The notes under the pieces were generated by a model. It ran no database searches, was not told the DNA's origin, and saw only the letters and a program-made list of their open reading frames with translations. The position numbers and the translations under genes were made by a program. Positions 2,833-46,598 of a stretch of DNA of 49,567 bases are shown here, piece after piece (position 1 is the stretch's first letter; every line of letters begins with the position of its first letter). The stretch comes from an uncultured Flavobacteriales bacterium (GTDB lineage Bacteria > Bacteroidota > Bacteroidia > Palsa-965): positions 1 through 49,567 of the forward strand of contig CAIQQJ010000013.1 of the NCBI GenBank assembly GCA_903873905.1, read 5' to 3'.

Positions 2833-2944
2833 AAGAGAAGAAATTTCTATTTGTCAAATGATATTTTTAACTTTTATACAGAATTTACTTTCAAAAAAAC
2901 ATCATTCACAAGAATTGATCCTTTACCTATCTTTGGTTCTCAAA

Positions 2945-2993
2945 ACTCAAATTTCAAATCTCAAATTTCAAATCTCAAATCTCAAATCTCCCA
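2945..2993 (+). repeat. Heptanucleotide tandem repeat (TYTCAAA)n
   Basis: Six consecutive 7-nt units, ACTCAAA, TTTCAAA, TCTCAAA, TTTCAAA, TCTCAAA, TCTCAAA, followed by a degenerate seventh (TCTCCCA). The array ends 7 nt before the GTG start of rsmE. Confidence 0.9.
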
Positions 2994-8381: not shown

Positions 8382-8482
8382 TGGAAAAGGCTTACACAAG
8401 TTTACGAAATTTCAAGCGGAAATGCCAGTGAAATCAAGCCACAGAACTAATTGAATTTATTTTCCAACAATTCCTCATTTCC

Positions 8483-8525
8483 CCAATTACCCTAATTACC
8501 TTAGTTACCTCATTACCTAATCACC
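8483..8525 (+). repeat. Tandem 8-9 nt repeat (NTAATTACC)n before the helicase gene
   Basis: Five units: CCAATTACC, CTAATTACC, TTAGTTACC, TCATTACC and TAATCACC, followed by TTTCC and the start codon 6 nt later. A related array, ending in the same 12-mer AATCACCTTTCC, precedes the gene starting at 41128 on the other strand. Confidence 0.85.
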
Positions 8526-8536
8526 TTTCCCCATCA

Positions 8537-11500
8537 ATGCAAGAATCAGAAAAACAATTCACCGTTTACAAATCATCGGCAGGCTCAGGCAAAACATTCA
8601 CCTTGGTGAAGGAATATCTGCGTATTGCATTGTCAGACACATTCGATCCGCCACAGCGTTACAGGAAAATTCTCGCCATCACTTTTACCAATAAAGCGGC
8701 CGCCGAAATGAAGGAGCGGATTATTTCTGCCCTTAAGGAACTCGCAGATCCCAAAGCAGGAATAAATTCGCCTTTGGCAATTATCTTGAAAGAAGAATTG
8801 AAGCTAGATGCATTCACATTAGCTGTACGCTCGAAAGATTTGCTTCGTGCGATTCTTCACAATTACACAGATTTTGCAATTGGTACCATTGACAGTTTCA
8901 CACATCGCATCATACGCGCGTTCTCACATGATCTGAATTTACCTGTCAATTTCGAAGTGGAAATGGATTCCGAAAAACTGATTCGTGAAGCGGTGGATAT
9001 TTTGATCAGTAAAATTGGTGTGGATGACAAGCTCACTGAAATTCTGGTGAAATTTTCAGAAACCAAAACAGAAGAGGAAAAAACTTGGCAAATTGAAAAT
9101 GAACTTCGCTATGCTGCGAAAAATCTATTAAAGGAAGATGCCGCAAGAAGTGCAGATAAACTACGCGAACTTTCCATTGATGATTTTATGAATATTGCTT
9201 CAAAACTTCATAAAATGAAAATCGCTTTTGAAGAAAATGTCGGAAAGATTGCAAAATCCGCCATCAAGCTTATTCAAAATTCTGGTCTCTCAATCGATGA
9301 CTTTTCATATACAAAAGCAGGAATCGCAGGAAGACTTTTAGCTTATGCGAATAATGACCTTGAGAAATTCGGTGAACCAAATAAGAATATTGAAAAATCA
9401 ATTGCTAGCGGCAAATGGAATTCTGGAACTGCAACTAAGGATGCAAAAGCAATTATTGAAACTATCAAATTTGAACTAGAGACGTATTGGAAACAATTGG
9501 AGGAAATTGTTGAACATGAATTCCCAACATATGTTTTCCGAAAAATGTTGCGCAAGAATATTTATTCGATTGCTGTGTTAAGTGAAATCGAAAAAATCAT
9601 TTTCAATTTTCGTAATGAACAGAACATTCTTCATATTTCAGAATTCAACCGCATTATTTCCAAAGTTGTTTTTGCTGAACCCGTTCCATTTATTTACGAG
9701 CGCTTGGGGGAAAAATATTCAAACTATCTAATTGATGAATTTCAGGACACTTCGTTGGTGCAATGGCATAATTTGCTTCCATTGATTGAGAATTCACTTG
9801 CAGGAAACCATTTCAATATGCTTGTTGGCGATGGCAAACAAGCTATTTATCGATGGCGCGGCGGTGAGGTAAGTCAATTTGCAAATTTGCCGAAAGTGAT
9901 CAATCATTTGGATAATCCATTGATTACAGAACGCGAACAAAGTTTAGTTAGGAATTACGAACCGCGTCATCTTTCAAAAAATTATCGAAGCAAAGCGGAA
10001 ATCATTCAATTCAACAATGCATTTTTCAGAAATCTTTCTGAACAACTTTCAGATTCAGGAAAATTAATCTATGACCAACTTGAACAGGAATTTGATCCAA
10101 CAAATACTGGTGGGTATGTTCGAATTGAATCGTTGAATCTGGAAAAGGATAATAAATCGGAACCATTTGTTGAAAAAACAATTGCACTTGTTCAGCAATT
10201 GGCCAAAGAAGACTGGCCCTTATCTGAAATTGCGATTCTAGTCAAGACCAATAAAGATGGTTCCTTGATTGCAACCAATTTGCTTAAAGCTGGAATCCCC
10301 GTTTTATCTTCGGAATCCTTATTGCTGAAGCAATCACCCATTGTTTCATTTATGGTTTCCATTCTTCGTTGCATTGATCATCCAGCGGAAGAATTGGCAG
10401 GCGCTCAAGTATTGGAATATCTTGTTGCCTCAAAAAAAATAAGCGGTCCATTGCATGAACGATTGAAACAATTCGGAGATCATAGAAATAATTTAAAATC
10501 ATTTCTTGCAGAACATAAAATCACTTTTGATCCAATTCGATTCGCACGATTGCCATTCTATCAGCGTTGCGAAGAAATCATTACTTGCTTCGGTCTCGGT
10601 GAAAAGTCAGATTCGTATTTGTTGTTTTTTCTCGATGAGATTTTGAATTACAGCAATAGCAGAAATAAAGACAAGCAGGATTTTTTCGCTTGGTGGGAAG
10701 ATAGAAGTAGAAAAGCATCCGTTGTTGTTCCTGAAGGAATGAATGCTGTAACGATCATGACCATTCATAAATCAAAAGGACTAGAATTTCCTGTTGTAAT
10801 TTTCCCTTTTGCAAATTGGAAACCTATCGGCAAACCAGATGAGAAATGGATTGATTTTGAGGACCCAGAAATCCCTGGCTTGACAACTGCTTTGATCCCG
10901 ATTACCAAAGATCTCATGAAAACGAATTTCAAATCAGTTTACGAGGAAGAGCAGGATAAATTAATGCTCGATGACATTAATGTTTTATACGTTGCAATGA
11001 CACGTGCTGAGAAGCGCCTTTATGTTTTCACAGAAGATATTTCACTTAGAAAAAGTGAGCCCACTGGTGTTAGTCCATTTTTCCCGCGCGCATTGAATGC
11101 AATGAAAAATCCTTTTGTAGAAAATATTTCTGAAACAGGAAAAATTGTTCCACCAGAATTGTCAAAAGTAATTCCTCCGGAGTGTATCAGTCCAGATAAC
11201 CTTGAAAGTCATATTTGGGAAAACCGCGTTCGTATTCGCTCAAATAGTTCTGATCATTGGGATGCAGATGATGCAAATGGAAGTCGTGACAAAGGAAATT
11301 TGCTGCACGAAATTCTTTCTGAAATCAATACAAAAGAAGACATTGATTTTGCTTTGGAAAATGCAATATTAAATGGGCTCAGTGATTCCTCAGAAAGGGA
11401 TAGCATCAAAACACTTCTAAATAAATTAATTGATCTCCCAGAATTGAGTTCTTGTTTCAATGGAAAAGGGAAAATCAGAAAAGAAACGGAGTTGCTTCTT

Positions 11501-11704
11501 CCAAATGGCAAACGATTGCGTCCTGATCGCGTTATTGAAAACTCAGAAGAAACAATTATCATTGATTACAAAACTGGCCAAGCGAATCCATCTTACAAAA
11601 AACAGTTGGATCGATATGCAGAAGTTTTGAAAGAAATGGGTTATGGAAAAATTCAGAAAAAAATCGTTTATACAGAAACGCTGACGGTGGAAAGTTGGAA
11701 TTGA
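8537..11704 (+). CDS. UvrD/REP helicase with C-terminal RecB-type nuclease (AddA-like)
   Basis: A 1055-residue superfamily 1A helicase-nuclease for processing double-strand DNA ends. Walker A is S-S-A-G-S-G-K-T (residues 13-20), Walker B is D-E-F-Q-D-T-S (about 400), followed by G-D-G-K-Q-A-I-Y-R-W-R-G, N-Y-R-S-K, the motif V block M-T-I-H-K-S-K-G-L-E-F-P and motif VI V-A-M-T-R-A-E-K-R-L-Y-V. The C-terminus carries a PD-(D/E)XK nuclease with G-N-L-L-H (about 920) and I-I-I-D-Y-K-T-G-Q (about 1005-1013). This layout matches AddA/RecB beta subunits. The second nuclease subunit often encoded next to it (AddB-like) is not in this window. The start ATG lies 6 nt after the nonamer array. Confidence 0.93.
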   Translation: MQESEKQFTVYKSSAGSGKTFTLVKEYLRIALSDTFDPPQRYRKILAITFTNKAAAEMKERIISALKELADPKAGINSPLAIILKEELKLDAFTLAVRSKDLLRAILHNYTDFAIGTIDSFTHRIIRAFSHDLNLPVNFEVEMDSEKLIREAVDILISKIGVDDKLTEILVKFSETKTEEEKTWQIENELRYAAKNLLKEDAARSADKLRELSIDDFMNIASKLHKMKIAFEENVGKIAKSAIKLIQNSGLSIDDFSYTKAGIAGRLLAYANNDLEKFGEPNKNIEKSIASGKWNSGTATKDAKAIIETIKFELETYWKQLEEIVEHEFPTYVFRKMLRKNIYSIAVLSEIEKIIFNFRNEQNILHISEFNRIISKVVFAEPVPFIYERLGEKYSNYLIDEFQDTSLVQWHNLLPLIENSLAGNHFNMLVGDGKQAIYRWRGGEVSQFANLPKVINHLDNPLITEREQSLVRNYEPRHLSKNYRSKAEIIQFNNAFFRNLSEQLSDSGKLIYDQLEQEFDPTNTGGYVRIESLNLEKDNKSEPFVEKTIALVQQLAKEDWPLSEIAILVKTNKDGSLIATNLLKAGIPVLSSESLLLKQSPIVSFMVSILRCIDHPAEELAGAQVLEYLVASKKISGPLHERLKQFGDHRNNLKSFLAEHKITFDPIRFARLPFYQRCEEIITCFGLGEKSDSYLLFFLDEILNYSNSRNKDKQDFFAWWEDRSRKASVVVPEGMNAVTIMTIHKSKGLEFPVVIFPFANWKPIGKPDEKWIDFEDPEIPGLTTALIPITKDLMKTNFKSVYEEEQDKLMLDDINVLYVAMTRAEKRLYVFTEDISLRKSEPTGVSPFFPRALNAMKNPFVENISETGKIVPPELSKVIPPECISPDNLESHIWENRVRIRSNSSDHWDADDANGSRDKGNLLHEILSEINTKEDIDFALENAILNGLSDSSERDSIKTLLNKLIDLPELSSCFNGKGKIRKETELLLPNGKRLRPDRVIENSEETIIIDYKTGQANPSYKKQLDRYAEVLKEMGYGKIQKKIVYTETLTVESWN

Positions 11705-39841: not shown

Positions 39842-40183
39842 AATTACTACAAAGAACTTTTTACTGTACTATCGAATTTCATATTTATTGACTGCCAATT
39901 TCCAATTTTTAACTTCCTCCTGCCCCTTTTTTTCCTTCGCACTTTTTCTTTGGGCGTGCCCTTCGTACCTCAGGTCGGGCTTTCCGCGCTACACGGTAGC
40001 TTGCTTCAATCCCTCACGCATTTTTTTATTTTGCATTTCATGTTTTTTCAAAGCTTCCAACAATGCCATCATTCTCATCCACATCGGAACATACGGTTTT
40101 GACAATCGAATTTCTCGATCAATTTATGCTTGAGTTTTATTTCCTGGACTTTTCATTGGTAATCTGTAATTGGTAATTGGTAA
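39842..40183. other. Gene-free stretch with REP-like copy 2
   Basis: This 342-nt interval between the tRNA and the nitronate monooxygenase-like gene contains the second REP-like element and, near its end (about 40158-40184), an ATTACCA-type repeat. I see no gene or RNA in the rest. Confidence 0.65.
39952..40019 (+). repeat. REP-like interspersed palindromic element, copy 2
   Basis: Starts GGGCGTGCCC, contains TCGGGCTTTCCGC and ends CTTCAATCCCTCACGC, matching the flanking blocks of 2746-2832 in order and orientation. Its inner hairpin is different: GCTAC (39988-39992) with GTAGC (39996-40000). Confidence 0.7.
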
Positions 40184-41128
40184 TCAAGTATTTCTACAAA
40201 GTTCCTCTTTTACGGCGAGATACTCTTTCATAATCTCCACCACAATTTCACTCGCAGATTTTATTTCACGAATCATCGCACTCACCTGCCCAATTTCCAA
40301 TTCTCCTTCTTCCAAATCTCCTTCAAACATTCCCTTCTTCGCACGACCACGACCGAGCAAATTTTTCAATTCTTCAATAGAAGCACCATGCAATTCTGCA
40401 TCCTGAACTTCATTGAAAAATTTATTCTTGATCAAACGCACAGGAACCAATTGTTTCATCGTCAATTGTGTTTCACCTTCATTGGTTTTGACAACTGTTT
40501 GTTTAAAATTCTCATGCGCCGATGATTCTTTCGATGCCACAAAACGAGATCCTATTTGCACCGCATCTGCACCAAGAGCTATCGCTGCTACCATTTGTCT
40601 TCCCGATGCAATTCCTCCTGCGGCAATGATCGGAATACGAATCGCATTTTTCATCATTGGAATCAAAACCATTGTTGTTGTTTCTTCTCTTCCATTGTGT
40701 CCTCCTGCTTCAAAACCTTCTGCAACAATTGCATCAACACCGGCATCCACCGCTTTCTGAGCAAACTTCACATTTGCCACTACATGCACAACTTTGATTC
40801 CTTTTTCCTTCAGAATTGAAGTCCACGTTTTCGGATTTCCCGCTGAAGAAAAAACAATTTTAACGCCTTCTTCAATGATTATTTGAACATGTTTTTCAAT
40901 ATCGGGATAAAGCAAAGGAAGATTCACACCAAAAGGTTTATTCGTTGCAGCCTTGCACTTGCGAATGTGTTCGCGCAAAACATCCGGATACATTGAACCT
41001 GCACCAATTAATCCAAGTCCACCAGCATTGCTGACAGCTGCAGCCAGTTCCCACCCACTACACCAAATCATCCCAGCTTGAATGAGCGGATATTTTATTC
41101 CAAAGAGTGAAGTAATTCTGTTTTCCAT
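40184..41128 (-). CDS. FMN-dependent nitronate monooxygenase / FabK-like enzyme
   Basis: A 314-residue TIM-barrel flavoprotein. The ATG at 41128 is used; an in-frame extension upstream only translates the nonamer repeat. The start M-E-N-R-I-T-S-L-F-G-I-K-Y-P-L-I-Q-A-G-M matches the 2-nitropropane dioxygenase family. FMN-binding blocks are A-E-G-F-E-A-G-G-H-N-G (about residues 137-147, with the catalytic-type His) and A-A-G-G-I-A-S-G-R-Q (about 170-179), then G-A-D-A-V-Q-I-G-S-R-F. The same family includes enoyl-ACP reductase FabK, so oxidation of nitronates and enoyl-ACP reduction are both possible. Monocistronic. Confidence 0.88.
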   Translation of the reverse strand: MENRITSLFGIKYPLIQAGMIWCSGWELAAAVSNAGGLGLIGAGSMYPDVLREHIRKCKAATNKPFGVNLPLLYPDIEKHVQIIIEEGVKIVFSSAGNPKTWTSILKEKGIKVVHVVANVKFAQKAVDAGVDAIVAEGFEAGGHNGREETTTMVLIPMMKNAIRIPIIAAGGIASGRQMVAAIALGADAVQIGSRFVASKESSAHENFKQTVVKTNEGETQLTMKQLVPVRLIKNKFFNEVQDAELHGASIEELKNLLGRGRAKKGMFEGDLEEGELEIGQVSAMIREIKSASEIVVEIMKEYLAVKEELCRNT

Positions 41129-41157
41129 GGCATTTTTCAGAAAGAGATCAAAAGTAC

Positions 41158-41190
41158 GGAAAGGTGATTGAGGTAAATTGGGTAATTGAG
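41158..41190 (-). repeat. Tandem nonamer repeat upstream of the nitronate monooxygenase-like gene
   Basis: On the minus strand: CTCAATTACC, CAATTTACC, TCAATCACC, TTTCC. The units match the array before the helicase gene at 8483 and end in the same 12-mer AATCACCTTTCC. It ends 29 nt before the ATG. Confidence 0.8.
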
Positions 41191-41285
41191 CTAAATCAAG
41201 ATTTTGTTGAAAATCTACCCTCAATATTGGAAAACCTGGTATTCATCCTACCTATTTACCCATTCACCGCAATTACTCAATGATT

Positions 41286-45046: not shown

Positions 45047-45116
45047 GTTCCATTTACAATTCGAGGATTTGAATATTCGAAGATTAATTCATTCCTACAT
45101 TTCAATTTTCGAATTT

Positions 45117-46598
45117 TCAAATATTCGAACTGTTTTTTCTGAAAGGCAATTCAATTGGATTTGGATTTTCAAATCCTAATACAATTTTCAATCCTTCCTT
45201 CTCCCCTGCCTTGATCATTATTTCCCAAGCGGCTTTTCTGTCATTAGAAATCTCCCCATCAAGAATAGCTTCACGAATAACTGTTTTAATATTTCCAACC
45301 TGAATGTTGGGAGAAATATTAAATGCCTTCATGATATCTTCACCTGTAACAGGAGGCTGCCAATTACGAATGTTGTCTTTTTCCTCAATCTCTTTTAATT
45401 TGGTTCTAACCAATTCGAAATTATTCAGATAGCGTTTCACACGCGCCTCCTGTTTCGAAGTGATGTCACTTTCGCACAATATCATCAAATCATCAATGTC
45501 ATCGCCTGCGTCAAACAGCAAACGCCGTATTGCAGAATCGGTTACAATTTCACTGGCAAGAACAATCGGACGCAAATGAAGTTGAACCAATTTCTGAACA
45601 TATTTCATCTTCGCATCCAAAGGCAATTTCAGATTCGTGAAAATTTTCGGAACCATTCTTGCTCCTCGATCTTCATGTCCGTGAAAAGTCCAACCGTGAC
45701 CCTCTTCGTAACGCTTTGTTGCAGGCTTTGCAATATCGTGGAGGATAGCAGCCCATCGCAGCCAAAGATTTTCGGAACGCGTGCATGCATTGTCAAGCAC
45801 TTGTAAAGTGTGATAAAAATTATCCTTGTGTGCATGTCCCTTAATTACATCTACACCTTGCAACAAACACATTTCCGGAAAAATCAATTGCAACAATCCT
45901 GAATCAAAAAGCAATTTGAATCCGACAGAAGGAACTTTTGCAGCAACAATTTTATTCAATTCATCAATGATTCGTTCTTTGGAAACAATTTTTATCCGTT
46001 CCTTATTATTTGAGATGGAGTCAAAAGAGTTTTTTTCAATGGTATAATTCAATTGTGTAGCAAAACGAATCGCGCGCATCATGCGCAAGGGATCGTCAGA
46101 ATAAGTAATATCTGGATTAAGTGGCGTGCGGATTATTTTATTTTCGATATCTGAAATTCCATCGAAAGGATCCAGCATTTCGCCATAATTATTTTTATTC
46201 AAGCTAATGGCCAGAGCATTAATCGTAAAGTCTCTGCGATCCTGATCATCTTTCAAGGAGCCATCTTCCACAATTGGCTTGCGGGAATCTCTGCTGTAGG
46301 ATTCCTTCCGGGCACCCACAAACTCAACATCCCAATCATCCAATTTAACTTGTGCCGTTCCGAAATTTTTAAAAACATGAACATGTGCCCTTGTTCTTTT
46401 CGCCACCGCTTCTGCCAATACAATTCCAACCGTTTTCACTGTTGCGTCATGACAGATGGCTACAATATCAATATCCTTGCAAGGCCTTCCAAGAATGGAA
46501 TCACGCACAAATCCTCCAATGACATAAGCGTCAATGTTTAATTTCGCGGCTTCCTCTGAAACAATTGCGAAAATAGGATGTGTAAGGTGTTTGTCCAT
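45117..46598 (-). CDS. cca: CCA-adding tRNA nucleotidyltransferase with HD domain
   Basis: A 493-residue class II tRNA nucleotidyltransferase. The ATG at 46598 is used (a TTG lies five codons upstream). The catalytic core has G-G-F-V-R-D (about 28-33) and D-I-D-I-V (42-46), followed by R-R-D-F-T-I-N-A-L-A and D-P-L-R-M-M-R-A-I-R-F-A, the RNA-binding signature. A C-terminal HD phosphohydrolase domain has L-H-D-I-A-K-P. It builds or repairs the CCA end of tRNAs, which is needed because the tRNA-Lys in this window lacks an encoded CCA. Confidence 0.95.
   Translation of the reverse strand: MDKHLTHPIFAIVSEEAAKLNIDAYVIGGFVRDSILGRPCKDIDIVAICHDATVKTVGIVLAEAVAKRTRAHVHVFKNFGTAQVKLDDWDVEFVGARKESYSRDSRKPIVEDGSLKDDQDRRDFTINALAISLNKNNYGEMLDPFDGISDIENKIIRTPLNPDITYSDDPLRMMRAIRFATQLNYTIEKNSFDSISNNKERIKIVSKERIIDELNKIVAAKVPSVGFKLLFDSGLLQLIFPEMCLLQGVDVIKGHAHKDNFYHTLQVLDNACTRSENLWLRWAAILHDIAKPATKRYEEGHGWTFHGHEDRGARMVPKIFTNLKLPLDAKMKYVQKLVQLHLRPIVLASEIVTDSAIRRLLFDAGDDIDDLMILCESDITSKQEARVKRYLNNFELVRTKLKEIEEKDNIRNWQPPVTGEDIMKAFNISPNIQVGNIKTVIREAILDGEISNDRKAAWEIMIKAGEKEGLKIVLGFENPNPIELPFRKNSSNI

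Follow-up and report, generated by a model that had tools for sequence, protein, structure and literature searches.

Short intergenic tandem arrays before a helicase and a nitronate monooxygenase gene as probable members of one of many lineage-specific 7-9-nt repeat families

Heterocystous cyanobacteria carry STRR heptamers, several families of which are dispersed within one genome as in the genome described here, and the REP/BIME extragenic palindromes have a conserved palindromic core and are mobilised by a RAYT transposase. Heptamer direct repeats of TAACTGA were described from marine Beggiatoaceae, Cyanobacteria, and five Bacteroidetes (MacGregor, 2015; PMC4679880) and GGGNATC heptamers from Xanthomonas and Nostoc (Rehm, 2015; PMC4692102), the latter source also mentioning three Calothrix heptamers. 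The arrays analysed below are an instance of these already-known lineage-specific intergenic repeats, heptamers of which are described in both sources (PMC4679880; PMC4692102), and no paper on AATTACC-type arrays was found among the titles listed in searches of the open-licence literature. Bacteroidetes are described as initiating translation on unstructured leaders without Shine-Dalgarno (PMC3155529; PMC6847099), with S1-based start selection proposed for them (PMC3155529) and S1 invoked for the TAACTGA repeats too (PMC4679880), and the Bacteroidota -7 promoter consensus is given as TAHHTTTG (PMC6847099).

In the window, i.e., the whole stretch of 49,567 nt that was analysed, an AATYACC-family array was identified at 8473-8530 (plus strand) before a UvrD/AddA-like helicase-nuclease gene (8537-11704, plus strand; Pfam UvrD-helicase, UvrD_C, and PDDEXK_1) that was matched in 11 of 11 relatives searched. 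The first T of its five TYACC cores (TTACC or TCACC) lies at 8487, 8496, 8505, 8513, and 8521, and the spacings of 9, 9, 8, and 8 nt make it a mixed 8/9-nt array, so that the five units reported by the first-pass annotation stand while its strict nonamer period does not. TRF gave a period of 9, 6.1 copies, 71% matches, and a score of 43. From the ATG at 8537 it is 11 nt back to the end of the last core and 6 nt back to that of the 12-mer AATCACCTTTCC. Both this ATG and that of the nitronate monooxygenase (NMO) gene at 41128 are supported by relatives, which start at the same residue or close to it. The helicase array is single, with no inverted partner found in a shuffle test (p 0.32). Its leader contains 1 G in 64 nt and is predicted to be unstructured (dG -1.3 over 121 nt, z +1.28), the helicase region is not strong as a predicted RNA fold (z +1.0), and the TAHHTTTG consensus is absent from the helicase upstream region.

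The second array (41158-41195, minus strand; TRF score 36) precedes the NMO gene (40184-41128, minus strand; assigned by Pfam NMO at 1.5e-66 and by relatives) with three TYACC cores spaced 9 and 9 nt, in agreement with the three units claimed earlier. It lies 29 nt from the ATG at 41128 and 1 nt upstream of TACTTTTG (41149-41156, minus strand), a candidate Bacteroidota -7 promoter element between array and ATG, with ~20 nt remaining between this element and the ATG. The same 8-mer is found before NMO in the relative G003 (locus L150), where the array is missing. A weak inverted partner of the NMO array occurs at ~41240-41277 (plus strand; arm alignment score 11, p 0.021, 1000 shuffles), and RNA pairing between the two is not predicted (dG z -1.19). 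A heptamer array of AATTACC x4.3 (40155-40184, minus strand) overlaps and then follows the NMO stop codon, and both ends of this gene thus bear AATYACC-family arrays (40155-40184 over the stop codon; 41158-41195 upstream). A further heptamer array of TCTCAAA x7.6 (2938-2990, plus strand) starts 2 nt past a TATCTTTG -7 element (2928-2935), contains no G, and ends 10 nt upstream of the probable rsmE start (GTG 3001). The arrays at 2938-2990 and 40155-40184 and the weak partner at ~41240-41277 had been overlooked by the first-pass annotation. A low-scoring period-8 array (TTTCGAAT) at 45100-45129 precedes the start of a minus-strand gene by ~50 nt, and an Rfam search of the window returned one tRNA and nothing else.

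Both upstream arrays end, as had been reported, in an exact copy of AATCACCTTTCC (8519-8530, plus strand; 41158-41169, minus strand), in which one AATCACC unit is joined to TTTCC. When one mismatch is permitted, the window is expected to hold 0.55 matches to this 12-mer, and at least two occurred in 9 of 100 shuffles. It was found three times in the 3.93-Mb genome, one copy within a gene, so that it marks no element and was ruled out as a dispersed element itself. Among 26 AATYACC-type chains the next 5 nt were common to 12 of 325 pairs, nearly all because the unit continues; TTTCC was the sole clearly non-unit shared tail, and ~0.2 is a rough estimate for one such match among chains with non-unit tails. 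The arrays themselves exceed chance expectation, and the identical end is weak evidence.

A whole-genome search with a three-core pattern allowing 2-5-nt gaps gave 43 matches in the source genome vs 12 in a reversed control, and 0, 1, 0, 0, 2, and 2 matches in six same-genus genomes. A two-unit pattern with two mismatches showed no excess (154 matches vs 235 in the reversed control), and only arrays of at least three units were therefore counted. When merged, the matches resolved into arrays of heptamers (AATTACC, GATTACC) and arrays of octamers or nonamers (such as CAATYACC), and 24 of the 25 chains examined were intergenic. The suggestion of a dispersed microsatellite was supported in that the family recurs genome-wide, as one among many 7/8-nt families. 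A stop codon was nearest for 11 of the 16 heptamer arrays of this family, with one reading into its nearest start, and six of its eight intergenic octamer/nonamer arrays read into the nearest same-strand start. A division that places heptamers behind stop codons and octamers ahead of start codons was drawn post hoc and was rejected, as a stop codon was nearest for 8 of 12 arrays of period 8-9 in the wider sample.

That wider "random" sample of the source genome combined the window with the opening 20 kb of contigs chosen by number (495,177 readable bases in 33 of 41 stretches, eight all-N ones being left out); of its 48 arrays the window supplies 3, and two of the contigs, C115 and C59, were already on earlier pattern lists. 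Period 7 accounted for 32 of the arrays, period 8 for 15, and period 9 for 1, and no array had a period of 4, 5, or 10-12. In ten dinucleotide shuffles each of these three periods yielded ~0.1 array per replicate (~0.3 together), by which measure the arrays before helicase and NMO are real. Forty-four of the 48 arrays were intergenic vs 14.5% expected. For the 36 of these with called genes on both sides, with gene starts taken from our own simple hexamer gene caller (which called nlpC of L095 too short), the median distance to the nearest gene boundary was 6.5 nt vs 25.4 nt under uniform placement within the gap; 23 lay within 12 nt of a boundary, and the nearest boundary was a start in 16 and a stop codon in 20. 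Several unit families coexist in the genome (AAAATTC, AATTACC, AAAAGTTG, AAGTGAC, and others), and units recur at unlinked loci, with 34 same-unit pairs vs 1.19 expected (p<=0.001); the corresponding values were 16 vs 0.06 in G005, 3 vs 0.02 in G002, and 5 vs 0.14 in G012. Arrays were also observed at contig ends, e.g., 12.6 perfect copies of AACTTTTC opening contig C27 (L130 1-101), which suggests that longer arrays interrupt the assembly.

Array density and units differ genome by genome, the source species being represented by one assembly. Of the same-genus genomes, G005 contained 15 arrays over 279 kb, of which 11 had period 8, with AATTCACC as the main unit, and G002 contained 8 over 100 kb, with AAAGTCT as the main unit. 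The highest density seen was in G012 of the same class, where 80 kb (L194-L197) held 16 arrays with periods of 7-8; G006 had one array in 100 kb, and none were found in 80 kb each of G025 and G031. An array adjoining the helicase gene was present in none of the 11 relatives, one of which (G014) has a different heptamer ~170 nt upstream. Arrays occurred at the NMO junction in one of nine relatives, with other units, at the nlpC junction in one of five (AACTGAC, G003), at the junction of an MFS gene in two of five, and at the mreB-mreC junction in none of six; where relatives have any array at an orthologous junction, the unit usually differs. The G003 array upstream of nlpC (L255) has a unit one base from TAACTGA and, as judged by eye, an apparent inverted partner, and the source genome has octamers there. 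The mreB-mreC gap of the source genome measures 195 nt, and printed sequences place the mreC start a few tens of nt past the mreB stop in most same-genus relatives, for which script-computed gaps are longer because later starts were chosen. The helicase protein as query returned no named relatives, and MreB was used instead; of the 75 usable loci among 80 named Bacteroidota mreB loci, 4 had period-7 or -8 arrays in the mreB-mreC gap, the unit being different in each.

These arrays are thus nearly confined to intergenic gaps, have periods of 7 and 8 and rarely 9, reuse their units, often form pairs, hug gene ends, and are mostly missing at the junctions of relatives. It is probable that the helicase and NMO arrays are both degenerate members of one of many lineage-specific 7-9-nt families that are mostly tolerated, turn over, and are G-poor near starts. 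Strand slippage and template switching would create such arrays and turn them over quickly, and they may persist because intergenic DNA tolerates them. Slippage alone fails to account for one unit at many unlinked loci, and units would pass between loci through some copying process. Next to start codons the G-poor orientation alone would usually survive, since translation in Bacteroidota begins on leaders that are unstructured and have no Shine-Dalgarno.

The orientation data also bear on the possibility that the G-poor arrays are leader elements, i.e., single-stranded landing sites for S1 or a similar protein that set the translation rate, as proposed for the TAACTGA repeats of Beggiatoaceae. 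The C-rich strand was the coding strand in all 15 decided near-start arrays of the random sample (1 undecided), and S1 proposals exist both for Bacteroidetes (PMC3155529) and for TAACTGA (PMC4679880). At selected loci the C-rich strand was the coding strand in 12 of 16 decided near-start arrays and the opposite strand in 4 of 16, and since ordinary leaders of the source genome mostly have C>G (70%; C<G in 23%), the near-start excess is modest and the bias can mostly be put down to G-poor leaders. Random placement and orientation in the full genome had been named in the first-pass annotation as what would speak against its interpretation; placement proved strongly intergenic, while orientation was mixed. 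The helicase array, with 1 G in 64 nt of a leader predicted to be unstructured, agrees with the earlier proposal of an untranslated leader, as does the rsmE array, which by starting 2 nt past its -7 element would belong to the 5' leader. The NMO array does not, as it ends 1 nt before the probable -7 element, a position that would be upstream of the start site and outside the leader. With one array after and the other before a -7 element, no single role can be assigned per array family or unit length, and the common -7 element showed no excess before leader arrays (3 of 45; background 40 of 507). A stop codon is the nearest boundary for 20 of 36 arrays, the same genes in relatives mostly have no arrays, and the many different units imply no unit-specific protein, all of which leaves a leader function unlikely as the general explanation.

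It is also conceivable, and in our estimate rather unlikely, that every Bacteroidota genome with such arrays has a private set of 7-/8-nt units, which an active trans-acting writing or conversion process, in place of local slippage, would copy into the gaps, often as inverted pairs from stop codons, the units of a given junction being overwritten as lineages diverge.

Inverted pairs were frequent. A partner, accepted at p<=0.01 against 100 shuffles, was present for 19 of the 44 arrays of the random sample (~43%) and for 19 of 43 arrays at selected loci; in other genomes the counts were 12 of 14 (G005), 7 of 15 (G012), 1 of 6 (G002), 2 of 5 (G014), and 3 of 4 (G007). Paired arrays after stop codons might terminate transcription or protect the upstream message as 3'-end or intercistronic hairpins, with single arrays as half-lost relics. 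The source genome has 15 paired loci in the random sample and 13 among the selected loci, and of the 23 pairs between tandem or convergent genes, 21 start no more than 16 nt from a stop codon vs 54% expected, such that these pairs could have a 3'-end function. Octamer arrays with inverted partners in the mreB-mreC gap (L094 12008-12202) and the thiolase-nlpC gap (L095 4829-4964) have strong predicted folds (dG -45.5 for both; z -5.6 for mreBC and -7.2 for nlpC), and at the nlpC junction G003 has an array with a different unit. On the other side, 5 of the 28 pairs of the source genome are flanked by divergent genes and have no stop codon beside them, many arrays including that of the helicase are partnerless, the NMO pair has no predicted RNA fold, and stop proximity was not significant in G005 and G012 together (5 of 12 vs 32% expected, p 0.27). 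A comparison of complementarity between cognate arms and other arms of the same unit was mixed, and the loops at nlpC, mreBC, and NMO look unrelated by eye. Hairpin function is quite unlikely as the explanation of the arrays as a whole.

The earlier suggestion of a binding array, in which AATYACC units would be operators of one transcription factor for helicase and NMO, draws on the unit and orientation common to both arrays, on their ends near both starts, and on the position of the NMO array directly upstream of the probable -7 element, in the presumed -33 region. It is very unlikely, as spacing varies between 7, 8, and 9 nt among loci and inside arrays, the family also occurs after stop codons and between convergent genes, other units occupy like sites, and the orthologous promoters do not keep the arrays that a conserved operator would retain with its gene (helicase, 0 of 11 relatives; NMO, 1 of 9, with other units). 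Chance likeness of two low-complexity C/T/A-rich leaders is scarcely credible against the 43 vs 12 three-unit matches (0-2 per same-genus genome) and the 48 period 7-9 arrays vs ~0.3 per shuffle replicate, even though leaders in this genome are generally G-poor, AATCACCTTTCC also occurs once intragenically by chance, and the TRF scores of 43 and 36 are low. The two arrays are therefore preferably read as members of a tolerated, lineage-specific family. The link between helicase and NMO is nothing special, and a regulatory switch common to the two genes is improbable; any effect on expression would be local and incidental.

A local coincidence is in this way turned into a measurable genome-wide property, namely arrays with a sharp 7-8-nt period that are confined to gaps, with units shared within and not between same-genus genomes. 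Two old questions become testable, the over-representation of heptamers in bacteria and the spread of one unit to many loci, and matching leader repeats are not to be read as shared regulation.

As is typical of bacterial intergenic heptamer and octamer SSRs in general, the arrays are head-to-tail with units of ~7 nt, over-represented, and intergenic, with one unit at many loci. Like the described TAACTGA repeats they are short tandem 7-mers, mostly intergenic and sporadic between related genomes, with the same junction empty in some close relatives; some also stand directly before start codons and read gene-ward, as TAACTGA often does, and TAACTGA-bearing gaps of some Bacteroidetes hold other heptamers as well (PMC4679880). 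The TAACTGA unit was not among the array units listed for our sample, and in contrast to that system the arrays described here have multiple units, periods of 7, 8, and 9, many positions after stop codons, and frequent inverted pairs; nor is a majority upstream of starts in forward orientation, as reported for TAACTGA (PMC4679880), seen here (start nearest in 16 of 36, stop in 20 of 36). GGGNATC repeats differ in their G3 tracts, which form G-quadruplexes in vitro (PMC4692102), whereas the AATYACC unit has at most GG, its G strand GGTAATT(N) usually offering only GG in place of at least three G per unit. They are also reported as kept at 83% of the same junctions between two Xanthomonas species (PMC4692102), whereas most relatives here have no array. 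In common with the arrays of this genome, the GGGNATC repeats are intergenic heptamers at gene ends, their length differs at the same site in a related species, and inverted pairs are frequent, with 70 and 75 convergent ones given for two Xanthomonas genomes (PMC4692102).
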